From assembly GCA_903911165.1 (NCBI GenBank), contig CAIWCQ010000116.1:1-11678 (forward strand): a stretch of DNA of 11,678 bases. Reading direction: 5' to 3'. Position 1 is the first letter of the stretch. Every line of letters begins with the position of its first letter. The notes under the pieces were generated by a model. It made no database searches. It was not told the origin of the DNA and was given only the letters and a program-made list of their open reading frames with translations. A program made the translations under genes and the position numbers. The DNA is from an uncultured Actinomycetes bacterium. Lineage in GTDB: Bacteria; Actinomycetota; Actinomycetes; Mycobacteriales; Mycobacteriaceae. Positions 2 to 11,678 of the stretch are shown piece by piece.

Positions 2-1003
2 GTCGCCTCCACCACCGAACTCGTCGTTCAGATGGGATCGCGGATGCAGCGGCCGATCTGGCGCAAGGCGCTGCTGGAGAACGGTCTGGCCGAGGACGAG
101 GCGGATGAGATCTGTCGCGATATCGCCGATCACTACCCGGTGTGGCAGGAGAGCACCTTCCCCGGCCTGCTCGGCAATGTCGTGGCCGGACGTGTCGCCA
201 ACCGCCTCAACCTCGGCGGCAGCAACTTCGTCGTCGACGCCGCGTGTGCCAGTTCGCTGTCGGCACTGCAGTCCGCACTGCACCGGTTGTATCTGAACGA
301 ATCCGATCTGGTGCTGACCGGCGGCGTGGACGCACTCAACGACGTGATGATGTACATGTGCTTTTCCAAGACGCCGGCGTTCTCGGCGACGGGTGACTGC
401 CGGCCGTTCTCCGACGCCGCCGACGGCACCATCATCGGCGAGGGCGTGGGCATGCTGGCGCTCAAGCGCCTCAGCGACGCCGAGCGTGACGGTGATCCGA
501 TCCACGCGGTGATCCGCGGCATCGGCTCCTCCTCCGACGGCCGCGCCTCCAGCGTCTACGCACCGCGCTCCGAAGGTCAGGCCAAGGCACTGCGCCGCGC
601 CTACGAACGAGCCGGCTACGCACCATCGACCGTCGAACTGCTCGAGGCGCACGGCACCGCGACCAAGGCCGGCGACGTAGCGGAGTTCGCCGGACTCAAG
701 CTGGTGTTCAACGACGACTCGACCCGCTGCGCACTGGGTTCGGTGAAGTCCCAGATCGGCCACACCAAGGCGGCCGCTGGCGCTGCAGGTCTCATCAAAG
801 CCGTTCTGGCCCTGCAGCATTCAACGCTGCCCGGCACTTTGAAGGTGGACCGGCCGAACCCGGCGATGGAGATGGCTGACACCCCCTTCTACGTCAACGC
901 CCAGACCCGCCCGTGGGTGCGCCCCGGCGATCAGCCGCGCCGCGCCGCGGTCAGCTCATTCGGTTTCGGCGGCAGCAACTTCCACGTGACGCTGGAGGAG
1001 TAC
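2..1003 (+). other. Ketosynthase domain (N-terminal part outside the window)
   Basis: This is the condensing domain of the PfaA-like protein. Three signatures are intact: DAACASS with the nucleophilic Cys codon at 245-247, EAHGTATKAGD with His at 650-652, and KSQIGHTKAAAG with His at 761-763. The closing FGFGGSN motif lies near 959-979. A complete KS would start well over a hundred residues before the Cys; only about 80 are visible here. The domain looks catalytically competent. Confidence 0.93.
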
Positions 1004-4000
1004 CGCGGGAAGCAGCGCGCCAAGCGCCTGCGCGCCCTGCCGACCGAACTCGTGGCGCTCAGCGCGGCCTCCGCCGCCGACCTGGAGAAGCGGGCCGCCG
1101 AGATCCTTGCCGCGGCACGCTCCGGCGAAAGCCTGTCTCGCATCGCCTTCGAATCCGCGCGCGACTTCGACGCATCGCAGCCCGCCCGCGCGGGTCTGGT
1201 CGCAGCGGACACCGCCGCGCTGGAGACACTCGCCGAACGGTTGCGCGGCGCGCTCGCCGACGGCACCGCGGAGGGCCTCACCGATCCCAATATCGCCATC
1301 GGCATCGGCCCGGCCCGCGACGGCAAGACGGCCTTCCTCTTCCCCGGCCAGGGCAGCCAGTACGTCGGGATGGGTGCCGACCTCGCACTCGCCTTCCCCG
1401 GCGCACTCGCGGTGTGGGACGCCATCGACGGTGATCTCGCCGACCTGCACCGGGTGGTGTTCCCAGAACCGGCGTTCGACCCCGCTTCGGAAGATGCGCA
1501 GCGGACCACGCTCACCGCGATGCACAACGCCCAACCGGCCATCGCCGCCACCAGCCTCGCCCAACTGGCGCTGCTGGAGGTTCTGGGCGTGCGGGCCGAT
1601 GCCGCCGCGGGCCACAGCTTCGGCGAGGTCAGCGCGCTGGCAGCCGCGGGCGTCCTGCCGACTCACCGACTCGTCGACACCGCACGCATGCGCGGCATGC
1701 TGATGGCCGAAGCCGGCCAGGGTCAGGATGGCGCGATGCTGGCGGTCACCGCCAGTGCCGAGGACGTTCGGGGAATGCTCGACACCGAACCGCAGCGGGC
1801 CGCCGCGTTGGTGATCGCTAACGACAACGCACCTCGCCAGGTGGTGCTGGCCGGACATGAGGCCGACATCGCGTGGGCCGCGACCGCCGCGAAGTCGGCG
1901 GGGTGGACGGCGGTGCGACTGCCGGTCGCCTCGGCGTTCCACTCGTCGATCGTGGCCGCGAGTTCGGCGCCGCTGACTGAGTACCTGACGAAGATCGAAT
2001 TCGGGCAGCCGCGCTTCCCGGTGTATGCGAACGTGACCACCCAACCGTACGGCGACGATATCGCGGCTCAACTCGGCGATCAGGTGCGTCAGCCGGTGCG
2101 GTTCCGCGAGATGATCGAGGCGATGGCCCGCGACGGGGTCACCCGGTTCATCGAGGTCGGGCCAAGCCGGGTTCTGACCAAACTCGTTGGCCAGATTCTC
2201 GAGACGACACCGCATTCCGCTGTGGCCCTTGATGATCCGAAGGCCGAGGCGACGCGCGGCTGGCATCGCGGGCTCGCGGCCCTGGCTGCCGACGGCGTCG
2301 CGCTGGATCTCGTTGCGCTCTACGACCACTTCGAGGAACCGGAACAGCACGTCCCGGCGCCCGCGCATGCCGTGCTGGTGGGCGGGGCCAATGTCGGCAA
2401 GCCCTATCCGCGGGCGAACGGGAACAACACCATCACGCCCAAACGAGTCAGGGTTCCTGCAACTAGTGCGCCCATCGCACCGCCCAGTACAAACAGTGCA
2501 CCGACGCCCGCCGTCCCACGGCCAGAGGAGCCCACCGTGAATCTCCCGCGCAACGGCGCGCAGTCGCATGCCGCCGACATGCCGTCCCCAGTCACGCCGG
2601 CTGCCATAGCGCCGCAGGCCGAGCACTGGGCTCCTGTCGAAGCAGCGCCGCTGTCCGCTGACGCGTGGAGCGTTATCGACCGCATCCAACAGGAGACGGC
2701 GAAACAGCACGAGCGCTATCTGGACGTGGTGACGCATAGCCATCAGGCATTCCTGGAGACGGCAGCACAGATGATGGCCGAGATCGTCGGCGATCACTCG
2801 GCCGCCCCGCAGGCCCTCCGGCCGGTGGTCCAGGCTCAGCTGGCGGCACCCGCGGCGCCGCGTGCGCTGCCGCAACCGGTCGCCGCGCCGGTCGCCGCAC
2901 CTCCGCCAGTTGTCGTACCGCAGGCCGCCCCCGCGCCGGCACCTGCCGCCGCACCGGCATCGGCACCAGCGCCCGCCACCGCACCGGCCGTGCCGTCGAT
3001 CTCGGCCGCCGACGTGGTCCTGGCGATCGTGTCGGAGAAAACCGGCTACCCCGCCGACATGCTCGGCCTGAGCATGGAAATGGAATCCGAACTCGGCATC
3101 GACTCCATCAAACAAGTAGAAATCCTCGCCGCACTCCAAACCCACTTCCCCGGCGCACCCGAAGTCCCCGCCTCCGAACTCGCCCGCCTACGCACCCTGC
3201 AGGACGTCGTCGACTCCATCGCGGGACTCGGATCCGATGACAGCCCCGGCGATGCTGCGGGAGTTGACCATTCGGCTGCATCAGGTTCCGGCGCATCCGG
3301 TTCGGGCAACTCAGGCTCGGCCGCATCCGGTTCGGCCGCACCCGGTTCACCGTCGGCCGGCCTGGTCTCCACCGAGGCGACATTTAGCGAAGTTCCGCCG
3401 AGCGGTCTGACGATGGCGGGCCTTCGCGACGGCGAGGTCCTCATCACCCGCGAGGACCCGGCCTTCGCTGACGATCTCGAACGCGTGATGACCTCGCACG
3501 GAATCAAGGCCCGCGCCGTCGACGATGTCCCGGCCGAAGCCTCCGCCGTGATCTCGCTGGCCGCATTGGCGCCGGTCCGCACGCCGCAGGACTGCGTCGA
3601 CATGCATGTGCGGGCTTTCCACGCGGCGCGCAGTGTGGCCAAGAGCAGTTCGCGGTCGCGACTGCTGGTCGCCGTGCAGTCGACGGGTGCACGCTTCGCC
3701 GGTGCGGACGTCCCGGTGGGTGTGGCCAGCCTGGTCAAGACCGCCGCATGGGAGTGGCCCAACGCCTCGGTGCGGGCCATCGACCTCGAAACCTTGGACG
3801 CGACCCGACTGACGCAGGAGTTGCTCGCCGGCGGCAGCGGTATCGAGGTCGCGTTGCGCGACGATGGCACCCGTCTGGTTCTCGCCGACACTGCAGTATC
3901 TGGCACAGCGTCCGACACGATCAGCGTTACCCCGGGTGGTGTCGTCGTCGTCACCGGCGGTGCCCGCGGTGTGACGGCAGGCTCGGCCCTGGCGCTCGCG

Positions 4001-5560
4001 GCCCGGCACGGACTGCGGCTGGCGCTGCTGGGCCGGACCCCACTCAGCGCTGCAACACCGGATGAACCGTCCGGCACCACGACCGCCGAGATCGCCACCG
4101 CGCTGGTGGCATCGGCCAAGGCCCGCGGTGAGTCGATCACCTTGCCGCAGGCTCGGGCGGCGGCGGACAGCCTGCTCGCTCAGCGTGAGGTGCGTGCCAC
4201 CCTCGCGAAGGCCGAACAGCAGGGCACCGCCGCGCGATACTTCCCCGCCGATATCAACAACGGCGCCGAACTACGCGCAGTGCTTGACGAGGTGCGTCAG
4301 ACCTTCGGGCCGATAGTCGGTGTCGTGCACGGTGCCGGCGTACTCGCGGACAAACGTCTCGAAGATCTCGACGACGAGCAGTTCGTCAAGGTGTTCAGCA
4401 CGAAAGTCGTTGGCGCCGAGGCGCTGCTGGACGCGACAGCCTCCGACGATCTGCGGTTCATCTCACTGTTCTCCTCCATCGCGGCGCGGGCCGGCAATCC
4501 CGGACAGGCCGCGTACGCCGCCGCCAACGCTGTGCTGGAGTCCATCGCGGCGCGCGAGTCCGCCCGTCGCGGGGCCGACTGCGGGGTGCGCGCGTTCGGT
4601 TGGGGCCCGTGGGACGGCGGCATGGTCGATGCGACGCTCAAGAGTCGGTTCGCTGAGGCCGGTGTGGGTGTCATCGGGTTGGACGAGGGTGCGCGGTTCT
4701 TCGCCGAGCACGCGCTGGCCCGTTCCGGCGCCTCAGCGATCGTCGTCGCCGCACCTGCCGAACACCGCATGCGGGCGGCCCGCCTGGAATGGGACGTCTC
4801 TACCGAGACTCTGCCGGTACTCGCCGATCATCAGGTCCGCGGCCGGGTCGTGGTGCCGGTGGTCATCGTGCTCGACGCGATGCTGCGAGCGGTGCGCCCA
4901 CTGGTGCCGACCGCTGCCACCGTGGTCCGCGATTTCCAGGTGCTCTCCGGCGTGGTGTTCGACGAGACCGAAATTCAATCCCTGACCATCGATCTCGAAC
5001 CGGCGGGCTCGTCCTACATCGTCAGCGTCGAGGACTTTCAGGGCCGCAAGCGCTACCGCGCCGTCATCGACGTCAACGCCGCCGACACCTCTGCCGCGGG
5101 TGGCCTGGTTCCGCAGATCTCGGGGTCGGCCTGGCCGATCAGCGTCGACGACGCCTACACCGGTCCGCTGTTCCACGGCCGGAGTTTCGCCGCCATCGAA
5201 GCGCTCGACGTCCTCGGCTCCGCCGGGTGCACCGCGCGCCTGCGGGGTCTGCGCGAACTCGGCTGGCCCGACGACGCCTGGGCCATCGATCCGGTCATCG
5301 TCGACGGCGGGCTGCAGTTGGCCATCCTGTGGGCCAATGCGAACGGCCTACCGCTGGTGCTGCCGCAGCGGATCGGACGCGTAGTGCTGCACCGGCCGTT
5401 CGGCGACGACGTCCTGCGCTGCCGCCTCGCCGCGCATCCGGTCAGCGACAAACGCGTCGACTACGACATCGCCTTCGAGACCACCGACGGCACGCTCGTC
5501 GCGGAGCTTTCCGGCGTGGAGTTCTATGTCGCGGGTTCGGGTGCGGATTCGCCGGCGTGA
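2..5560 (+). CDS. pfaA: PfaA-like iterative PKS/PUFA-synthase subunit, KS-AT-ACP-KR-DH (5'-truncated)
   Basis: Large multifunctional synthase that should extend an acyl chain with malonyl units on its own ACP and reduce the beta-keto group. The frame is open from the first full codon, so the true start and the N-terminal half of the KS lie upstream; the ATG at 32 is internal. Residues counted from that ATG: KS with DAACASS Cys72, HGTAT His207 and GHT His244; malonyl-type AT with GHSFGE Ser529, Arg554 and AFHS His637; Ala/Pro-rich linker; one ACP with phosphopantetheine Ser1025 in LGIDSIKQ; Gly/Ser linker; KR with TGGARG and the K1458-S1482-Y1495-N1499 set; C-terminal PKS-type DH with His1600 and D1758-x3-Q1762. 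Domain order and the ACP motif match PfaA-family subunits. Enediyne PKSs share a similar order, but the PfaC-like neighbour argues against that. It overlaps the next gene by four bases. The single ACP is atypical. Product unknown. Confidence 0.93.
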   Translation, partial: VASTTELVVQMGSRMQRPIWRKALLENGLAEDEADEICRDIADHYPVWQESTFPGLLGNVVAGRVANRLNLGGSNFVVDAACASSLSALQSALHRLYLNESDLVLTGGVDALNDVMMYMCFSKTPAFSATGDCRPFSDAADGTIIGEGVGMLALKRLSDAERDGDPIHAVIRGIGSSSDGRASSVYAPRSEGQAKALRRAYERAGYAPSTVELLEAHGTATKAGDVAEFAGLKLVFNDDSTRCALGSVKSQIGHTKAAAGAAGLIKAVLALQHSTLPGTLKVDRPNPAMEMADTPFYVNAQTRPWVRPGDQPRRAAVSSFGFGGSNFHVTLEEYRGKQRAKRLRALPTELVALSAASAADLEKRAAEILAAARSGESLSRIAFESARDFDASQPARAGLVAADTAALETLAERLRGALADGTAEGLTDPNIAIGIGPARDGKTAFLFPGQGSQYVGMGADLALAFPGALAVWDAIDGDLADLHRVVFPEPAFDPASEDAQRTTLTAMHNAQPAIAATSLAQLALLEVLGVRADAAAGHSFGEVSALAAAGVLPTHRLVDTARMRGMLMAEAGQGQDGAMLAVTASAEDVRGMLDTEPQRAAALVIANDNAPRQVVLAGHEADIAWAATAAKSAGWTAVRLPVASAFHSSIVAASSAPLTEYLTKIEFGQPRFPVYANVTTQPYGDDIAAQLGDQVRQPVRFREMIEAMARDGVTRFIEVGPSRVLTKLVGQILETTPHSAVALDDPKAEATRGWHRGLAALAADGVALDLVALYDHFEEPEQHVPAPAHAVLVGGANVGKPYPRANGNNTITPKRVRVPATSAPIAPPSTNSAPTPAVPRPEEPTVNLPRNGAQSHAADMPSPVTPAAIAPQAEHWAPVEAAPLSADAWSVIDRIQQETAKQHERYLDVVTHSHQAFLETAAQMMAEIVGDHSAAPQALRPVVQAQLAAPAAPRALPQPVAAPVAAPPPVVVPQAAPAPAPAAAPASAPAPATAPAVPSISAADVVLAIVSEKTGYPADMLGLSMEMESELGIDSIKQVEILAALQTHFPGAPEVPASELARLRTLQDVVDSIAGLGSDDSPGDAAGVDHSAASGSGASGSGNSGSAASGSAAPGSPSAGLVSTEATFSEVPPSGLTMAGLRDGEVLITREDPAFADDLERVMTSHGIKARAVDDVPAEASAVISLAALAPVRTPQDCVDMHVRAFHAARSVAKSSSRSRLLVAVQSTGARFAGADVPVGVASLVKTAAWEWPNASVRAIDLETLDATRLTQELLAGGSGIEVALRDDGTRLVLADTAVSGTASDTISVTPGGVVVVTGGARGVTAGSALALAARHGLRLALLGRTPLSAATPDEPSGTTTAEIATALVASAKARGESITLPQARAAADSLLAQREVRATLAKAEQQGTAARYFPADINNGAELRAVLDEVRQTFGPIVGVVHGAGVLADKRLEDLDDEQFVKVFSTKVVGAEALLDATASDDLRFISLFSSIAARAGNPGQAAYAAANAVLESIAARESARRGADCGVRAFGWGPWDGGMVDATLKSRFAEAGVGVIGLDEGARFFAEHALARSGASAIVVAAPAEHRMRAARLEWDVSTETLPVLADHQVRGRVVVPVVIVLDAMLRAVRPLVPTAATVVRDFQVLSGVVFDETEIQSLTIDLEPAGSSYIVSVEDFQGRKRYRAVIDVNAADTSAAGGLVPQISGSAWPISVDDAYTGPLFHGRSFAAIEALDVLGSAGCTARLRGLRELGWPDDAWAIDPVIVDGGLQLAILWANANGLPLVLPQRIGRVVLHRPFGDDVLRCRLAAHPVSDKRVDYDIAFETTDGTLVAELSGVEFYVAGSGADSPA
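1325..2233 (+). other. Malonyl-type acyltransferase domain of the PfaA-like protein
   Basis: It opens with the FLFPGQGSQYVGMG motif and has GHSFGE with nucleophile Ser (codon 1616-1618). An Arg sits 25 residues later (1691-1693), the spacing of the carboxylate-binding Arg of malonyl transferases such as FabD. The catalytic His is in AFHS (1940-1942). These residues support malonyl-CoA loading of the ACP. The closing FIEVGP motif lies near 2150. Confidence 0.9.
2654..2790 (+). other. Helical segment with paired H-x2-Y/F-L motif before the ACP
   Basis: A short charged, probably helical block sits between two Ala/Pro-rich linkers. It contains HERYL followed, His to His 11 residues apart, by HQAFL. 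The PfaC-like subunit has the same spacing in its own inter-linker helix. A docking or dimerisation role is inference; no function is visible in the residues. Confidence 0.55.
3005..3229 (+). other. Acyl carrier protein domain (only one copy)
   Basis: A single ACP of about 75 residues contains ELGIDSIKQVEIL, the PfaA-family form of the phosphopantetheine site, with Ser at 3104-3106. Reading the rest of the protein finds no second DSIK/DSL motif, whereas classical EPA/DHA synthases carry several tandem ACPs. The domain is flanked by an Ala/Pro linker on the 5' side and a Gly/Ser linker on the 3' side. Its codons differ from the surroundings, with more AAA, CAA, GAA, GTA and CTA and very little G. 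Confidence 0.94.
3272..3361 (+). repeat. Degenerate Gly/Ser/Ala-coding repeat (flexible linker)
   Basis: Imperfect short direct repeats of the type gcatccggttcgg encode an SGSGASGSGNSGSAASGSA-like stretch between the ACP and the KR. It is low-complexity and in frame, and it acts most plausibly as a flexible tether letting the ACP swing between domains. Such tracts change length easily by slippage. Confidence 0.75.
3410..4790 (+). other. Ketoreductase region (structural plus catalytic part)
   Basis: About 3410-3925 looks like a degenerate Rossmann-like structural half. From about 3935 the catalytic half has TGGARGV for NADPH binding. Lys at 4403-4405, Ser at 4475-4477, Tyr at 4514-4516 and Asn at 4526-4528 are spaced 24, 13 and 4 residues apart, the usual PKS KR pattern. 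A long insertion between the LLGR strand and HGAGV (about 4040-4310) is a PfaA-family trait. The domain looks active. Confidence 0.88.
4795..5557 (+). other. C-terminal PKS-type dehydratase (double hot-dog) domain
   Basis: LADHQVRGRVVVP resembles the N-terminal His motif of PKS dehydratases (His codon 4829-4831). PLFHGRSF and DPVIVDGGLQ supply the second half, with Asp at 5303-5305 and Gln four residues later. Both putative catalytic residues are therefore present. In the PUFA-synthase family this DH is distinct from the FabA-type DHs and is thought to form trans double bonds; its activity here is inferred. Confidence 0.75.
5557..5560 (+). other. GTGA stop/start overlap coupling the two genes
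   Basis: The TGA stop of the PfaA-like gene (5558-5560) overlaps the GTG start (5557-5559) of the next gene. No good Shine-Dalgarno sequence is visible in the preceding 20 bases, so translation of the second subunit is probably coupled by terminating ribosomes. The start is supported by the KS beginning a few residues later (EPVAIVGRS). Confidence 0.85.
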
Positions 5561-8500
5561 GCGGTTTCGAACCTGTCGCGATCGTCGGGCGCAGTTGCGT
5601 CCTGCCGGGTGCGGCCACGCCGGAGTCGCTGTTCGAGGCGACAATGGCCGGGCGATGTCTGCTCTCGGCCACGCCGCGCGATCACTGGCGCGGGGTAGAT
5701 CCGGCGACACTACTGGCCAGCGACAAACCCGGCCTGCGAGTCTCCTCGGCGACCGGCGGCTACATCGAGGACGCACTCGATCTCGGTGATATCGCCTCGC
5801 GGATAACCGGTCTCGCGCGTCTCGATCCGCTCGTCGGGTGGCTTGCGCATTGCGTGCGTCAGGCTCTGGGCGCGCCACATGCCGCGCCGCGGACGGGCCT
5901 GATCGTCGGCAACCTCTCCTACCCCAGCACCCTGGGCACCGCGTTCGTCGAAAGCATGTGGAACGGCCGCGACGATGTGGACCCGCGCAACCGGTTCTCC
6001 TCCGGGCTGCCGGTGCATCTGGTCGCCGAGGCGATGGGTATCACCGGGCCGGCGTTTGCGCTGGACGCGGCGTGCGCGTCATCGCTGTACGCGATCAAGC
6101 TCGCCTGCGACGCACTGCAGGACGGCGACGCCGACATGATGCTGGCCGGCGGAGTCAACGGATCCGATGACCTGTTCCTGCATCTGGGGTTCACGGCACT
6201 GCAGGCGCTGAGCCCGTCGGGCCGATCGCGCCCGTTCCACGCCGACGCCGACGGACTCGTTCCGTCTGCGGGGGCGGCACTGGTCGCGCTGAAACGCCTC
6301 GAGGACGCCGAACGCGCGGGAGATCACATCGTCGGGGTCATCATGGGCGTCGGGCTGTCCAACGACGGCCGGCAGAGCGGATTCCTGGCGCCCGCGGTGG
6401 CCGGCCAGACCCGGGCTATGAACGCGGCCCTGGAGCAGGCGGGCCTGGCGCCGTCGGATATCGACTACGTGGACTGCCACGCCACCGGTACCTCACTCGG
6501 GGATGCGACCGAACTCGAGAGCATCGTCGCCGCCTACGGCGAGGTGCCGCTGCGACTGGGTGCGCTCAAGGGCAATCTGGGCCACACCATCACCGTCTCC
6601 GGCGCGGCGAGCCTGGTCAATGTGCTCTCTGCTATGCAGGCGTCGACGACCCCACCGACGTTGTGCGACAGGCTGACTCCGGCGCTCGCGCAGACGCCCT
6701 TCACCGTCTCGACCACCGCCGCACCGTGGGACGGCGCCATCAAACGCGCGGCGGTGAGCAACTTCGGCTTCGGCGGGAACAACGCCCACCTGATCGTGAC
6801 GAACCACCAGCCCGGGAGCCGGCCCGCGGCGCGACGGACGCCGCCGTCGGGTGACATCGTCATCTGCGGCATGGGTGTGGTCACCGGCGATGCTCGTGAC
6901 GCGGGGTCGTTCCGTCGCCGCGCTCTCGGTCCGGCAGCGGACCCGCAACCGTTGGACACGGTGGAACTCGATCTCACCGGATTGGGCTTTCCGCCCATGG
7001 AACTCAAGGCCAGCCTCAGCCAGCAGACGGCGATGTTGGCCGCGGCGGGCCAGGCACTCGACGATGTCGACACCGACCCGGACCGCACCGGGGTGATCGT
7101 CGGCATGGGCTGCGACGCCACCATCGCGCGCCAGCGGTTGCGGGTGCAGCACGCCGACGACGATCAGTGGCTGGCCGCCAACGCCGAGGCCGCCCCGCGA
7201 CTAACCGCCGACGGCGTCGTCGGAACCATGCCGAACATCCCGGCCAACCGCATCCACGCCCAACGTGACTTCCGCGGGTTCGGCTTCACCGTCTCCAGCG
7301 AGGAACTCTCCGGGATCACCGCGCTGCGTATCGCCGCACGGGCCTTGCGTAGCGGCGAACTCGACGCCGCCGTCGTCGGCGCTGTCGACATGTGCTGCGA
7401 GGCCGCGCACCAGAGCGCAGCGGACGCCCTCGGTGCGGGCGGCGACGGGCCGCACGGCGACGCGGCGGTAGCGTTCGTCCTCAAGCGCCGCGCGGATGCC
7501 GAAGCCGCGGGCGAGGCGATTATCGCCGTCGTCGACGCCGATGCCGCTGCTGGACCGCCGGATCCGAATGTCGCGACGGACCGGTTCGGCCGTACGCATG
7601 CCGCGAGTGCCGCGCTTGAAATCGCCTCCCGCGCAATGGCTCTGCAGTCACGGGTCCGGGTGGATCAGGCCGGGGCGCAGCCGGCGCCGGGCGGCACCCG
7701 CGGGTCGGTGTGGCTGGACTCGCTCGGCGGACGCGCCGATGGCGTCACCCTGTCGGCGGGCAACGGAGCGCCGACGCCGGTGGCGCTGGGTGCCATTCCC
7801 GTCACTGAGCGCTATGCCGGAGCTGACCGCAGTGATCTGCTGGGCCGGATATCGCGGCGCGACCCGGGCGGTACCGGGCCGGTGCGGTGCGCCGTGGTGG
7901 CCGACAGCGAGTCCGCACTCGAGGCGCTTCGACGGTCAGTGGTGGATCGGCTGCAGCGCGGCGAGGTGCCCGCGGGCCCCGGCGTCGTGTTCGCCGATCA
8001 CCCGATCATCGGCGAGTTGGCGTTCACGTTCACTGGAGCGGCGGCGGCCTATGCCGGTGCCGGTCGGGACCTACTGCTGGCGTGGCCTGAAATCGGCGAC
8101 GCCCTCGCCGATCGGCTCTCCGGCGTCGGCGACCTCGCCGAGGCCATGTACGGCGCCGATGTCACCACGCTGGATCCGCGCACCCAACTCACCGGCTGCG
8201 CGGTGGTCTGTCAGTCGCACGCGGAGTTCTCCCGCACTGTTCTCGGCCTCGCACCGGAGGCGGCAATCGGCCTGTCCTCCGGTGAGACCAACTCCATGAT
8301 GGCGTTCGGGGTGTGGCGTGACCTCGAGCCGATGCTCGACGAGATCGAAGCGTCGGGCATGTATGGCGATCAGCTGACCGGTAAGTGCACGGTCGCGGCC
8401 GCGGACTGGGGTCTGGGCGATGACCAGCCGGCACCGTGGGAGTGCTGGCGGATCAATGCGCCGAGAGCGGCAATCGAAGCGGCGCTAGAGCGTGAACCGC

Positions 8501-11500
8501 GCGCCTACATGACCATCGTTCAGGCGCCTGATGATTGCGTGATCGGCGGTGACGCTGCGGCGTGCCGCCGGGTGATCGCCTCGATCGACGGCGCGCAAGC
8601 GATGCCATTGGGTCTGGACATGGTGATCCACTGCAGTGCGATGGCGCCATTCGCTGACACCTGGCGCAGCATCCACACCCGCGAAACCTATGAGGTGCCG
8701 GGCGTGCGTTTTTATACCAATGCCGGTAACCGGTCCTACACACCGACGAAAACTGCTGCGGCCGAGGCGATCACCCAGCAGGCGGTCGAGCCGATCGACT
8801 TTCCCGCCACCGTGCTGCAGGCGTGGGAGGACGGCGTTCGCATCTTCGTCGAGCACGGCCCACGGGCCATCCTGACCGGTGCGATCCCGAAGATACTCGG
8901 TGATCGAGAGCACCTGGCGGTGGCGCTGGACTCCCAAGAACGACGGGGACTTCGCGCGCTAGCCGAGAGCGTGTCCAAGCTGTGGGTGCACGGGGTGGCG
9001 GTGGCCGTCGATGCGTTCGACGCACGCCTGCTCCTGCTGCGCGATCTCGCCATCCCGGCGGTGCGGGAGAACACCCGCACGGTGACACTGCCCGCCCACT
9101 GGCCAGCCGTCACCACAAAACCCGTCACGACAGAACCCGTCATCGCAACATCCGCCGTCGCAGCATCTGTGGCCTCGACAGCCACGGCGTCCGGGAATGG
9201 GAGCACGCCAATGCCAGATTCACAGCACCAACTGATGCCACCGGCGCCGCACTACCCTGCAGCGCTGGTGCTTCCCCGGACCGCGGTCAGTAACGGGGCC
9301 CGCACCGAGGTCGTCATCTCCCACCGGGTGGCCGAACCCGCCGCGGTCAACGGCAAGATGGCCGCCGCGATGAACCTCGTGAGCGCGGTCAGCGAGGCCC
9401 ACTCACTGTTCGTCGAACGTCAGGCTCAGGCGCACGCGTCGTTTCTGACGATGCGCGGCGAGTTGGTCAGGATGGCCGCGAGCCGGCCGTCCACGCTGCC
9501 GCCGCCGGTCGCCCCCGCCGCGTTGCCGCCAGCACCGCCGCCGTCACTACAACCGCCGACACCGCCAGCACCGCCGCAGGTTTCACAACCACCGGCACCG
9601 CCACCACCGCCGCCGCCCAATCGGCCGGTGGATGCTCCGATCGCTCCGCTGACCCCGGCCGCGGCGACCCCGCAACCGCCGCTGTGGTCGCGCGCCCAAC
9701 TCGAGGTCCTCGCCGGCGGGTCCATCGCGGAGGTGTTCGGACCACAGTTCGCCGAACTCGATCAGTACGAGCGACTGGTGCGCATGCCGCAACCGCCGCT
9801 GCTGTTCGCCGATCGGGTGATGAGTATCGAGGGCGAGCCCGGTTCGATGGGCACCGGCCGGATCGTCACCGAGACCGACGTCACCGCCGACCAGTGGTAC
9901 ATGCACGTCGGCCGGATGTCACCGGGCGTGGTCATCGAGTCCGGCCAGGCCGACCTGCTGCTGGCGTCGTGGTTGGGAGCCGACTTCTCCAATCGCGGTG
10001 AGCGGGTGTACCGCCTGCTCGGGTGTGACCTGACGTTCATGGGTGAACTGCCGCGCGGCGGCGAGACGCTGCGCTACGACATCCACATCGACGGACACGC
10101 GAAGACCGGCGACACCCGGCTGTTCTTCTTCCACTACGACTGCTACATCGGCGACCGGCTGATGATCTCGGTGCGCAACGGCCAGGCCGGGTTCTTCTCC
10201 GCGCAGGAACTCAGCCAGTCCGACGGTGTCCTGTGGGACGCTGCCGATGATGTTCCGCGTGAGGGCGCACGGCGCGACGCACCGCCACGGGTGACACAGA
10301 AGCGATCCCTGAACCGCGCCGAACTCGACGCGTTCACCGACGGACACGCCTTCGCCTGCTTCGGCAAGGGTTTCGAGAGGGCCGCGGCGCACACCCGCAC
10401 ACCTGCGACCCCGGGCGGGCGGCTGCGACTGATCGACGAGGTGGTGTCCTTCGAACCGAACGGCGGGCCGTGGGGGCTCGGCTATCTGCGCGCCACAACG
10501 GCGGTGCCGAAGGACGCCTGGTTCTACGACGGACACTTCAAGAACGACCCCTGCATGCCCGGCACGCTGATGGCCGACGCGGCCACCCAGGCGCTGTCGA
10601 TCACCATGGCCGCCTACGGGTTCACCATCGAACGCGACGGCTGGCGGTTCGAACCGGTGGGAGACGAGATGGCGCGCTTCGTCTGCCGCGGACAGGTAAC
10701 GCCAGATGCCGACCACCTCCTGGAATACGAGGTGTTCGTCGAAGAGATCGTCGACGGGCCGACGCCGACGATCTACGCGGCGCTGCTGTGCCGCAGTGAC
10801 GGGTTCAAGGTGTTCCACTGCCGACGATTCGGGATGCGCCTGGTTCCGGACTGGCCGCTGCCGCCGGGAGCGCCCGGGCCGGTACGAATTCTGGCCGGCA
10901 CCAACGATGTTCGCGGTGACTACGGCGCGTTACTGGCCTGCGGCCGCGGTATGCCCTCCGATGCGTTCGGTGCCCTGTACGCGCCGTTCGACGGCACCCG
11001 CCGTGCCCCACGCCTGCCCGATGAGCCCTACCACTTCATCTCGCGAATCCTGAGCGTGGATAGTGCGCCCGGGGTGCCCACCAAGGGCGGCACCGTCGTC
11101 GCCGAGTACGACGTCCCCGCCGACGCCTGGTATTTCGAGGACGGCCGGTGCGGTGCCGTCCCGCTGTCGGTGCTCATCGAAATCCTGCTGCAGCCGTGCG
11201 GGTGGCTGTCCTCCTACAACGGGTTCGCCGCTAACCGGCTCGACGATGTGGTGTTCCGCAACCTCGACGGCACCGACGTGGTGCTGGTCCGGCCCGCCGG
11301 TGCCGGAACCTTACGGGTGACGTCGACGCTGGAGCGGTTCGCCGAAGGCGGCGGCTCGACGATCGTGTTCTTCGATGTGGTGTGCACCCAGGGCGATGAC
11401 GTCGTCATGACGATGAAGACCGCGTTTGGGTTCTTCAGCCCCGATGCGCTGAAGAATCAGGTCGGCCTGCGAGTGGAGCCGGGTGAGTTGGAGGCCTTAT

Positions 11501-11678
11501 CCGCCCCGGCGCCGGTCGCCGTGGCGTACGGAAGCGATGAGCTTCGCGGCGACCCGTGCCTCGCCCAGGGCCGGCTGCAGGTGATCGACCGCCTCAACTT
11601 CTGGCCCGGCGGCGGGGCCGGCGGCCTCGGGCGGCTGGTCGCGGAATACGACGTTCACCCCGAAGCGTGGTTCTTCAA
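5557..11678 (+). CDS. pfaC: PfaC-like subunit, KS-CLF-AT-(FabA-type hot-dog units), 3'-truncated
   Basis: The reading frame is open from the GTG at 5557 to the window end: 2040 full codons plus two bases, no stop. In order: KS with DAACASS Cys173, CHATGT His308 and GHT His343; a KS-like CLF in which Glu583 aligns with the Cys; an acyltransferase with GLSSGE Ser907 and IHCS His1025; a Thr/Ala/Ser/Pro linker, a short helix and a long proline-rich tract; then repeated FabA-like hot-dog units. The second unit carries HF-x6-PG-x4-D (His1660, Asp1674), the FabA active-site spacing. Classical PfaC is KS-CLF-DH-DH with the acyltransferase in a separate PfaB; an AT inside this subunit resembles myxobacterial Pfa3 and thraustochytrid subunit B. 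It should pair with the upstream subunit. The C-terminus, including the fourth catalytic motif and any further domain, lies outside the window. Confidence 0.92.
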   Translation, partial: MSGFEPVAIVGRSCVLPGAATPESLFEATMAGRCLLSATPRDHWRGVDPATLLASDKPGLRVSSATGGYIEDALDLGDIASRITGLARLDPLVGWLAHCVRQALGAPHAAPRTGLIVGNLSYPSTLGTAFVESMWNGRDDVDPRNRFSSGLPVHLVAEAMGITGPAFALDAACASSLYAIKLACDALQDGDADMMLAGGVNGSDDLFLHLGFTALQALSPSGRSRPFHADADGLVPSAGAALVALKRLEDAERAGDHIVGVIMGVGLSNDGRQSGFLAPAVAGQTRAMNAALEQAGLAPSDIDYVDCHATGTSLGDATELESIVAAYGEVPLRLGALKGNLGHTITVSGAASLVNVLSAMQASTTPPTLCDRLTPALAQTPFTVSTTAAPWDGAIKRAAVSNFGFGGNNAHLIVTNHQPGSRPAARRTPPSGDIVICGMGVVTGDARDAGSFRRRALGPAADPQPLDTVELDLTGLGFPPMELKASLSQQTAMLAAAGQALDDVDTDPDRTGVIVGMGCDATIARQRLRVQHADDDQWLAANAEAAPRLTADGVVGTMPNIPANRIHAQRDFRGFGFTVSSEELSGITALRIAARALRSGELDAAVVGAVDMCCEAAHQSAADALGAGGDGPHGDAAVAFVLKRRADAEAAGEAIIAVVDADAAAGPPDPNVATDRFGRTHAASAALEIASRAMALQSRVRVDQAGAQPAPGGTRGSVWLDSLGGRADGVTLSAGNGAPTPVALGAIPVTERYAGADRSDLLGRISRRDPGGTGPVRCAVVADSESALEALRRSVVDRLQRGEVPAGPGVVFADHPIIGELAFTFTGAAAAYAGAGRDLLLAWPEIGDALADRLSGVGDLAEAMYGADVTTLDPRTQLTGCAVVCQSHAEFSRTVLGLAPEAAIGLSSGETNSMMAFGVWRDLEPMLDEIEASGMYGDQLTGKCTVAAADWGLGDDQPAPWECWRINAPRAAIEAALEREPRAYMTIVQAPDDCVIGGDAAACRRVIASIDGAQAMPLGLDMVIHCSAMAPFADTWRSIHTRETYEVPGVRFYTNAGNRSYTPTKTAAAEAITQQAVEPIDFPATVLQAWEDGVRIFVEHGPRAILTGAIPKILGDREHLAVALDSQERRGLRALAESVSKLWVHGVAVAVDAFDARLLLLRDLAIPAVRENTRTVTLPAHWPAVTTKPVTTEPVIATSAVAASVASTATASGNGSTPMPDSQHQLMPPAPHYPAALVLPRTAVSNGARTEVVISHRVAEPAAVNGKMAAAMNLVSAVSEAHSLFVERQAQAHASFLTMRGELVRMAASRPSTLPPPVAPAALPPAPPPSLQPPTPPAPPQVSQPPAPPPPPPPNRPVDAPIAPLTPAAATPQPPLWSRAQLEVLAGGSIAEVFGPQFAELDQYERLVRMPQPPLLFADRVMSIEGEPGSMGTGRIVTETDVTADQWYMHVGRMSPGVVIESGQADLLLASWLGADFSNRGERVYRLLGCDLTFMGELPRGGETLRYDIHIDGHAKTGDTRLFFFHYDCYIGDRLMISVRNGQAGFFSAQELSQSDGVLWDAADDVPREGARRDAPPRVTQKRSLNRAELDAFTDGHAFACFGKGFERAAAHTRTPATPGGRLRLIDEVVSFEPNGGPWGLGYLRATTAVPKDAWFYDGHFKNDPCMPGTLMADAATQALSITMAAYGFTIERDGWRFEPVGDEMARFVCRGQVTPDADHLLEYEVFVEEIVDGPTPTIYAALLCRSDGFKVFHCRRFGMRLVPDWPLPPGAPGPVRILAGTNDVRGDYGALLACGRGMPSDAFGALYAPFDGTRRAPRLPDEPYHFISRILSVDSAPGVPTKGGTVVAEYDVPADAWYFEDGRCGAVPLSVLIEILLQPCGWLSSYNGFAANRLDDVVFRNLDGTDVVLVRPAGAGTLRVTSTLERFAEGGGSTIVFFDVVCTQGDDVVMTMKTAFGFFSPDALKNQVGLRVEPGELEALSAPAPVAVAYGSDELRGDPCLAQGRLQVIDRLNFWPGGGAGGLGRLVAEYDVHPEAWFF
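5569..6810 (+). other. Ketosynthase domain of the PfaC-like protein
   Basis: A complete KS of about 410 residues starts at VAIVGRSCVLPG. The Cys is at 6073-6075, the first His at 6478-6480, Lys at 6568-6570 and the second His at 6583-6585; the closing FGFGGNNAH motif lies near 6766-6790. All catalytic residues are present, so this is a second working condensing domain beside the one in the PfaA-like subunit. Confidence 0.93.
6850..7770 (+). other. Chain-length-factor-like (inactive KS) domain
   Basis: It begins like a KS (DIVICGMGVVTG) and aligns with the preceding KS: FTVSSEELSGITALRIA matches FALDAACASSLYAIKLA, placing Glu (7303-7305) at the Cys position. The later HATGT segment is missing, and the GHT motif is GRT followed by HAAS. 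It therefore cannot condense and presumably pairs with the adjacent KS to set chain length, as in PfaC and type II PKS systems. Confidence 0.85.
7984..8990 (+). other. Acyltransferase domain embedded after the CLF
   Basis: An AT-like fold opens with a degenerate FTFTGAAAAYAGAG in place of FPGQGSQ. It has GLSSGE with Ser at 8275-8277 and a second motif VIHCSAM with His at 8629-8631, and closes with FVEHGPRAILTG near 8850. The residue 25 after the Ser is Ala, not Arg, so malonyl specificity is not supported. It may move acyl chains or release product, like PfaB-type ATs; this is inference. Confidence 0.82.
9370..9483 (+). other. Helical segment with paired H-x2-F motif before the Pro-rich linker
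   Basis: A probable amphipathic helix contains HSLFV and, with His 11 residues later, HASFL. The spacing equals that of the helix upstream of the ACP in the PfaA-like subunit. It is bounded by disordered linkers on both sides. Function is not known from the sequence. Confidence 0.55.
9484..9684 (+). repeat. Proline-rich low-complexity tract (interdomain linker)
   Basis: About 65 codons are dominated by Pro, with Ala, Thr, Gln and Ser, and include a run of seven prolines near 9598-9621. Repeated ccgcca/ccgccg units make the DNA itself repetitive. It separates the KS-CLF-AT half from the dehydratase half and is probably an extended, stiff linker. Confidence 0.8.
9799..10420 (+). other. FabA-type hot-dog unit 1 (atypical active site)
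   Basis: It starts with LLFADRVMSIEG and reaches WYMHVGRMSPGVVIESGQ. His (9904-9906) is present, but the His-to-PG spacing is two residues shorter than in FabA and no Asp falls at the FabA position. It is probably the structural partner half of a double hot-dog with unit 2, though weak catalysis cannot be excluded. Confidence 0.7.
10423..11030 (+). other. FabA-type hot-dog unit 2 (complete catalytic motif)
   Basis: It starts with LRLIDEVVSFEPNG and contains WFYDGHFKNDPCMPG. His at 10534-10536 and Asp at 10576-10578 lie 14 residues apart, as in FabA H70/D84. This is the best dehydratase (possibly dehydratase/isomerase) active site in the window, expected to act on beta-hydroxyacyl-ACP. Confidence 0.85.
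11032..11560 (+). other. FabA-type hot-dog unit 3 (His missing)
   Basis: It starts with YHFISRILSVDS and contains AWYFEDGRCGAVPLSVLIE followed by LLQPCGW. Arg/Gly occupy the place of the catalytic His and there is no PG. It looks like a pseudo-dehydratase half, the N-terminal partner of the truncated fourth unit. The LLQPCGW segment resembles what I recall of PfaC proteins. Confidence 0.75.
11575..11678 (+). other. FabA-type hot-dog unit 4 (only the first ~34 residues)
   Basis: LQVIDRLNFWPGG and EAWFF repeat the opening of the three earlier units at nearly the same Asp-to-Trp spacing. The window ends three codons after the Trp codon, just before the expected His/PG/Asp motif, so activity cannot be judged. 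Confidence 0.7.

Follow-up and report, generated by a model that had tools for sequence, protein, structure and literature searches.

A Pfa-type synthase pair in a Mycobacterium draft genome and its probable role in building the fatty part of a surface lipopeptide

The two genes that occupy contig C116 of a Mycobacterium draft genome (CAIWCQ010000116.1, 11,678 bases; this entire contig is called the window below) are the core of a Pfa-type synthase, consisting of PfaA and a PfaC with a fused PfaB-type acyltransferase, and both look functional by sequence. In related genomes the pfa genes lie within one large locus for non-ribosomal peptide synthesis, sugar metabolism and export, and the pair therefore probably builds the fatty part of a surface lipopeptide. 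It is suggested that in mycobacteria a Pfa-type synthase probably supplies the acyl chain of a glycosylated lipopeptide resembling the glycopeptidolipids (GPLs). We infer the joining of the Pfa chain to the peptide, the structure of the chain, its export and the completeness of the pathway in the organism of the window.

Both genes are read from the forward strand, open reading frame (ORF) 1 being followed by ORF2 (Table 1). The product of ORF1 has the Pfam domain order ketosynthase (KS), acyltransferase (AT), acyl carrier protein (ACP), ketoreductase (KR) and polyketide synthase (PKS)-type dehydratase (DH), and it is without its first 129 residues as judged by alignment to the related locus L005. 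Despite this missing N-terminus it scored above the cut-off of the NCBIfam PfaA model TIGR02813 (1049.1 against 1010.1 bits), with the best general PKS model reaching 607 bits against its own cut-off of 1740. One ACP is present in the window, compared with one to four in PfaA of the relatives. ORF2 begins with a GTG at position 5557, which overlaps the stop of ORF1 by four bases (GTGA), and encodes a KS, a KS-like stretch, a weak PfaB-like AT and FabA-like hot-dog repeats. The second KS-like stretch was assigned to the chain-length-factor (CLF) type because the motif DAACASS occurs only once in ORF2. The AT was below the cut-off of Pfam Acyl_transf_1 (19.4 against 32.7). The contig stops before ORF2 is complete, leaving it some 107 codons shorter than its relative P0001 (2147 aa), to which it is identical at 2018 of 2039 residues (99%); two FabA-like stretches lie in the window and three in the complete P0001.

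Motif matches across the two ORFs were found for the KS Cys, AT Ser, ACP Ser, KR Tyr, DH His and FabA His. The HGTGT-type KS His pattern was unmatched in ORF1 (HGTAT instead), as was the second-His KS pattern in ORF2 (GNLGHT instead), with the His retained by eye in each. Comparison with the metagenome-assembled genome (MAG) of locus L008 gave ratios of nonsynonymous to synonymous substitution (dN/dS) of 0.118 for PfaC and 0.130 for PfaA, and comparison with Mycolicibacterium sp. CH28 gave 0.166 and 0.169 for the two genes. Values of 0.12–0.17 in both genes indicate that both proteins are constrained by purifying selection. The first-pass annotation of this DNA had described two coupled genes of KS-AT-ACP-KR-DH and KS-CLF-AT-hot-dog architecture, a description borne out by the Pfam order, the motifs and the four-base overlap, with neither gene being complete.

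Table 1. Positions of the two megasynthase genes and their domains in the window.
Feature	Positions	Strand	Evidence
PfaA-type megasynthase, 5'-truncated (ORF1)	2..5560	+	TIGR02813 1049.1 bits, open frame 1852 aa
KS1, N-terminus missing	2..1138	+	PF00109/PF02801/PF16197; Cys motif DAACASS aa 79-85; KS tree
AT, malonyltransferase-type, GHSFGE	1334..2206	+	PF00698 116.7 bits; motif
Single ACP, phosphopantetheine Ser in DSIK	3014..3214	+	PF00550
KR	3938..4615	+	PF08659 118.6 bits; GGARGV and YAAAN motifs
C-terminal PKS-type DH, DHQVRG	4778..5557	+	PF21089 41.9 bits, aa 1593-1672; right boundary inferred
PfaC/PfaBC-type megasynthase, 3'-truncated (ORF2)	5557..11678	+	GTG start; P0001 comparison
KS2, Cys motif DAACASS	5569..6834	+	PF00109/PF02801; motif; tree
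CLF-like KS	6844..7800, approximate, by eye	+	PF00109 in two stretches; without Cys motif
PfaB-like AT, GLSSGE	8011..8895	+	TIGR02816 65.9 bits, below cut-off 144.3; motif
FabA-like dehydratase/isomerase domain 1, GHFKNDPCMPGT	10411..10818	+	PF07977 best stretch aa 1619-1754; motif
FabA-like dehydratase/isomerase domain 2, start only (contig end)	11563..11678	+	PF07977 aa 2003-2137 of P0001

The relationship of both KS domains to other synthases was studied in a tree quickly built from 56 KS rows, with SH-aLRT as the only support measure and several long branches, in which no characterised enediyne KS was present and the references included unannotated plasmid-record stretches of Azospirillum, Persicobacter, Embleya, Nostoc and Rhodococcus. 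This tree placed KS1 in a mycobacterial clade within the PfaA-type KS group (19 rows, SH-aLRT 99). The next KS outside was from Beijerinckia indica, given as a phenolic-lipid (type P) genome in the available part of PMC3098273, and the KS domains of modular PKSs lay further out. KS2 was placed in a mycobacterial PfaC clade (11 rows, SH-aLRT 99) next to an alphaproteobacterial protein; this clade includes the PfaC of M. simulans, CBMA 234 and TNTM28 (P0058, P0060 and P0063), and the PfaC-type group, like the PfaA-type group, was supported at 99. The pair had earlier been taken for a Pfa-type 'secondary lipid' synthase of an actinobacterium, and the PfaA model and the KS tree agree with this. 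Among these rows, enediyne KS domains apart, neither KS fell inside a characterised actinobacterial PKS family with a non-lipid product, KS1 grouping with the PfaA type and KS2 with the PfaC type. A sequence search of solved structures returned general PKS and fatty acid synthase relatives among the best 60 of 206 and of 166 matches, which does not name the product.

A second, separate mycobacterial Pfa lineage was found in L069 (G015), L070 (G016), L071 (G017), L073 (G022) and L074 (G023), with proteins that share 48–51% identity with the initial part of the window PfaC. G016, a single contig of 4.3 Mb, carries this second lineage, and G023 carries both. No Pfam acyltransferase match was obtained for the PfaC of L074 at E 0.001. 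Three further loci, namely L078 (G031), L080 (G042) and L082 (G049), have PfaD-family domains, and the stretch covered in each shows long multi-KS PKS frames and not a PfaA/PfaC pair.

The synthase type of the window was present in 25 (L005–L029) of 31 retrieved loci, 24 of them assigned to Mycobacterium or Mycolicibacterium and one to Actinomycetota, and PfaA adjoins PfaC in 25/25 mycobacterial loci. PfaD lies directly upstream in all 11 loci whose DNA extends that far (589.7 bits for L005 with TIGR02814, cut-off 449.25). Nineteen loci extend more than 2 kb downstream, and all of these but L022 have a pair of MmpL genes there (18 of 19). MmpS accompanies the pair in 16 of these 18, and the remaining two loci end within the MmpL gene. 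Compared with solved structures, the exporter proteins of L005 (two MmpL and one MmpS) most resemble MmpL4 and MmpS4. The rhamnose gene rmlA comes after PfaC in 15 loci; L006, L007, L008, L021 and L024 do not have it at that place, a piece of it lies on the opposite side in L025, and four loci are too short to show it. The envelope role that had been guessed for the product is made plausible by the adjoining MmpL pair. Upstream of PfaD, an ion-channel-like gene (PF00520) and a hemophore-related gene (TIGR04529) were observed in L017 (positions 474–1980), with a similar arrangement in L016, L018, L019 and L027; homologues of the hemophore-related gene occur in 10 loci in all.

To place the pair in a wider setting, stretches of 140 kb in G009 (same genus as the genome of the window), 120 kb in G014 and 100 kb in G023 were compared around the pfa genes. 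A shared stretch of 75–88 kb in the genomes of two well-assembled relatives contains the pfa pair and also rhamnose genes, glycosyltransferases, methyltransferases, a non-ribosomal peptide synthetase (NRPS) for four to five residues, a PKS and a fatty-acyl-AMP ligase. Between PfaD and the acyl-AMP ligase, 28 of the 36 ORFs called in G009 have a counterpart in the corresponding stretch of G014 (27 distinct partners), and gene order is largely kept. In G014 the rml genes are found on the opposite side of PfaD, and the arrangement in G023 is a different one. Family searches covered a subset of the G014 locus proteins and identified EryCIII-like glycosyltransferases (three proteins), a nucleotide-sugar dehydrogenase and a sugar epimerase/dehydratase. 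They also gave methyltransferases (TylF-like and others), oxidoreductases of the Gfo/Idh and GMC kinds, an ICMT-like protein and a sulfotransferase match that was weak. The fatty-acyl-AMP ligase reached 914.7 bits (cut-off 775), and the PKS passed a Pks2-type model (3145.5, cut-off 2400) whose name, sulfolipid synthase, should not be read as the product. One protein of 462 aa in this locus had no family match.

The NRPS of G014 and G027 has the order C-A-T-E (condensation, adenylation, thiolation, epimerisation) in NRPS1, followed by C-A-T-C-A-T-C-A-T-E-C-T in NRPS2; one extra module is present in G018, and the second part was called as two frames in G009. In the domain scan the tail E-C-T is without an adenylation domain for its last T, both in NRPS2 of G014 (C5:86371-98874) and on contig C173 of the genome of the window. 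Specificity letters of the A domains were extracted with a position ruler, and the first and last codes are ones that we take to be threonine-like.

The linkage of this NRPS to the synthase was examined in 37 genomes of the same genus, that of the window (G000) included, eight of which carry this PfaC (G000, G004, G009, G014, G018, G023, G024 and G027). Measured start to start on the same contig, the distance from PfaC to the best NRPS1 match is 49 kb in G009, 36 kb in G014, 44 kb in G027 and about 6 kb in G023. On contig C90 of G024, PfaC lies 46 kb from an NRPS1-like first part (57%) that is 41 bases from the contig end, and contig C84 opens with the matching rest (72%); the two parts presumably belong to one split gene. 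PfaC and NRPS1 are on different contigs in G018 and G000, and G004, also a carrier, had no NRPS1 match at the threshold used, among the matches listed. Counting matches among those listed, NRPS1 at no less than 65% identity over at least 1400 residues was found in five of eight genomes with PfaC and one of 29 without (p = 7e-4), and over at least 900 residues in six of eight and two of 29 (p = 3e-4). These p values and those below ignore kinship, and the genome of the query, G014, is itself one of the eight carriers.

Pieces matching the locus were also found in G000 itself (3.14 Mb, 524 contigs, 97.62% complete, 1.48% contaminated). Contig C181 carries NRPS1 at 71% followed by the start of NRPS2, C492 carries NRPS2 at 73%, and C173, a different contig from that of the pfa genes, carries the terminal E-C-T block (TIGR01720 126.2 bits, cut-off 74.2). 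The methyltransferase and glycosyltransferase that precede the NRPS are on C351 (77–79%), and a Gfo/Idh gene with two GMC oxidoreductases is on C410 (72–78%). When the two A-domain codes readable in G000 were set beside those of the relatives, one was identical and one differed by one letter. The two adjacent GMC-type genes (C410:1-4583, L125) both resemble the single one of G014 and G009 and are likely a duplication. MmpL genes on C138 and C422 are candidate 3' neighbours only. That on C202 was not accepted as the missing 3' neighbour, the gene past its 3' end not being PfaC. G000 is small in comparison with its relatives: 33 of the 36 other genomes of the genus have at least 4.0 Mb, and the two smaller than G000 are only 72–80% complete.

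Several observations weigh against a lipopeptide role for the pair. In G000 the NRPS, glycosyltransferase and pfa pieces are on separate short contigs with nothing connecting them. No PfaD over the cut-off was found in this assembly, the contig of the window starting inside PfaA, past the expected position of PfaD, nor did an exporter gene turn up next to PfaC. The first-pass annotation had proposed a search of the flanking genes for PfaD and a glycosyltransferase, and both are present in the relatives, with no PfaD found over the cut-off in the assembly of the window. The acyl-AMP ligase and PKS on C163 of G000 are only 48–55% identical to those of the locus and differently arranged, and C163 was for these reasons not accepted as the orthologous part. 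In the MAG of L008 (92% identical), a YczE-like gene, recognised by eye (L008:8500-10142), follows PfaC. The same gene is found in G000 on contig C1 (L037), with unrelated DNA beside it and no pfa DNA, so the surroundings differ between close relatives, which suggests that the pfa block is differently located, or rearranged, between L008 and G000. Contig C1 was rejected as a continuation of the window since it matches L008 only downstream of PfaC. Looser rules also weakened the co-occurrence, with six of eight against four of 29 genomes (p = 0.002) when 65% identity or more was required over 600 residues or more and seven of eight against eight of 29 (p = 0.004) for 58% identity at full length, again among the matches listed. 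G017 carries the NRPS (68%) and not this PfaC type. Finally, searches of the open-licence literature, judged by titles and the starts of abstracts with subscription papers outside this scope, found no isolated product for these genes.

If the lipopeptide reading is correct, PfaA and PfaC with PfaD would carry out repeated cycles of KS, KR, DH/isomerase and enoylreductase activity on malonyl units, and the resulting long acyl chain would keep double bonds and/or hydroxyls. A general phosphopantetheinyl transferase of the genus could serve the synthase. The NRPS would make a peptide of four to five residues with presumably threonine-like positions, and the fatty-acyl-AMP ligase and Pks2-like PKS may give further acyl machinery. 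The Pfa chain would be joined to the peptide, possibly via the terminal C-T didomain, and the EryCIII-like glycosyltransferases, dTDP-rhamnose enzymes and methyltransferases could then decorate the peptide. The fused PfaB-like AT would off-load the chain, and the available part of PMC12895367 reports PfaB to have a terminal role. Export of the product would be by the MmpS4/MmpL4-like set, as described for GPLs in the accessible parts of PMC5996870 and PMC1885439. A more detailed version of this proposal, offered as a tentative possibility, is an unrecognised surface glycopeptidolipid with two lipids, one introduced by the ligase and Pks2-like PKS at the first C domain and the other, a polyunsaturated or polyhydroxylated Pfa chain, at the terminal C-T. 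Its D-threonine-like residues would be glycosylated, and it would have dedicated export of the MmpS4/MmpL4 type.

The most serious alternative is a free-standing Pfa synthase whose polyunsaturated chain enters a membrane or envelope glycerolipid or glycolipid, with the NRPS as a mere neighbour. PfaD-PfaA-PfaC does form a self-contained block, and the NRPS begins 36–49 kb from PfaC in G009, G014, G024 and G027. The existence of the NRPS without this Pfa in G017 would also be expected under such a scheme, as would the second-lineage genomes G016 and G022, in which no NRPS1 match was found at the threshold used, among the matches listed. Against this stand the genes between Pfa and NRPS that are common to G009 and G014, the much shorter distance in G023, and the co-occurrence of Pfa and NRPS together with the hybrids published for the same clade (described in the available part of PMC13291983). 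This alternative is considered unlikely, and the lipid cluster of the first-pass annotation is not supported in the form given there: the window probably does not represent a stand-alone lipid cluster. In the relatives the pair is embedded in a large stretch that also encodes an NRPS, a PKS, an acyl-AMP ligase, glycosyltransferases and rhamnose enzymes.

It is also conceivable, and judged improbable, that the window species has an incomplete or decaying cluster from which nothing is made, or one that makes a different polyene for want of PfaD. Such a loss would account for the lack of a PfaD over the cut-off in an assembly that is 97.6% complete and for the different 3' neighbour in L008, and it has a parallel in G004, where no NRPS1 match was listed at the threshold used. 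The pfa genes of G004 (L079, C1:4612000-4631999) seem broken, with PfaC matching in two frames and PfaD partial, as if pfa decays once the NRPS is lost. The open frames of the window and the dN/dS of 0.12–0.13 against L008 argue against this, and the missing PfaD match has to be set against a contig that starts past its expected place in a draft of 524 contigs.

Also judged improbable is that the product is a siderophore-like metallophore of lipopeptide nature for which the MmpS4/MmpL4-like set serves as exporter. The closest solved relatives of the exporter are chains named as siderophore exporters (MmpL4/MmpL5 with MmpS4/MmpS5), and the hemophore-related gene upstream of PfaD in L017 would fit such a function. 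Against this reading, no salicylate synthase or hydroxylase family was found among the scanned subset of G014 locus proteins, and the locus contains sugar genes and glycosyltransferases as well as A-domain codes that are presumably threonine-like. Pfa-NRPS hybrids of Streptomyces, predicted to be metallophores in the available text of PMC13291983, speak for it, and the GPL exporter, likewise of the MmpL4 kind in that of PMC5996870, speaks against it. A modular PKS making a non-lipid product was rejected, since the KS tree and the TIGR02813 score favour Pfa, with the enediyne family outside this comparison.

With respect to known systems, hybrid PKS-NRPS-PUFA (polyunsaturated fatty acid) synthase clusters of a 'clade IV' were reported in 2026 from M. 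fortunisiensis TNTM28 and Mycolicibacterium sp. CBMA 234, together with a related hybrid cluster without the PKS from M. simulans (PMC13291983, available part). The system is therefore not wholly undescribed, as the first-pass annotation had suggested that it might be, and the window pair is a further member of these hybrids, its KS2 falling in the same clade as those of the three published strains. G014 (by family search) and G009 (by homology) share with clade IV the ICMT-like gene, PKS, acyl-AMP ligase and NRPS, the ICMT-like gene lying in both between the one-module PKS with the ligase and the NRPS; TIGR01720 was found on C173 of the genome of the window, a contig other than that of the pfa genes. 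That study searched for the gene types lying together within 20 kb and, in the part available, describes the DNA that separates pfa from the NRPS as poorly conserved. In contrast, the distance between pfa and NRPS exceeds 20 kb in G009, G014, G024 and G027, and the intervening region of G009 and G014 holds shared exporter, sugar and tailoring genes. What is added here is the breadth across many Mycobacterium and Mycolicibacterium species, the exporter, the sugar genes and the longer-range linkage. In the searches of the open-licence literature delimited above, only PMC13291983 was found to discuss mycobacterial Pfa genes, and no paper was found that ties them to sugar and export genes of the GPL type.

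Among the 20 Pfa types (A–T) of Shulse and Allen (2011), no Mycobacterium is included in Table 2 of the available part of the paper (PMC3098273). Judged by the same part, the window resembles these synthases in its PfaA order, KS-MAT-ACP-KR, and has a fused PfaBC (KS-CLF-AT-DH2) like that of types C and D. The relatives of the window resemble type L in having PfaD 5' of the other genes. Type A has four to six ACPs and the window one, and the setting of the relatives within an NRPS and glycosylation locus differs from these types.

The GPL locus, about 65 kb in M. smegmatis, has in the accessible parts of PMC5996870 and PMC1885439 an mmpS4-mmpL4a-mmpL4b exporter, rml genes and glycosyl- and methyltransferases in common with the loci described here, these having been found in the relatives G009, G014 and L005 only. 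NRPS, pks and acyl-AMP ligase are also common. The GPL acyl chain differs in being a C28–30 hydroxy or methoxy acid, and no Pfa genes appear in the part of the GPL locus table available. The GPL peptide is D-Phe-D-alloThr-D-Ala-L-alaninol according to the same parts, and the NRPS of the relatives does not correspond to one for this peptide, having four or five modules, the first code described above and a C-T end, with release domains sought by Pfam scan only. Trehalose polyphleates offer a further likeness in that mycobacteria export long polyunsaturated phleic acyl chains through an MmpL (PMC11633156, available part). They use another exporter, MmpL10, for which reason phleic acid synthesis was set aside, and no Pfa-type synthase is named in that part.

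In mycobacteria the form of the colony, the entry of phages and contact with the host depend on surface lipids. If the proposal is true, a sizeable group of mycobacteria would have a surface glycolipopeptide with a chain from a PUFA-type synthase, and the role of Pfa would widen from membrane lipids to sugar-decorated surface lipids. The gene set with which this connection of pfa, NRPS and exporter can be tested has now been mapped.

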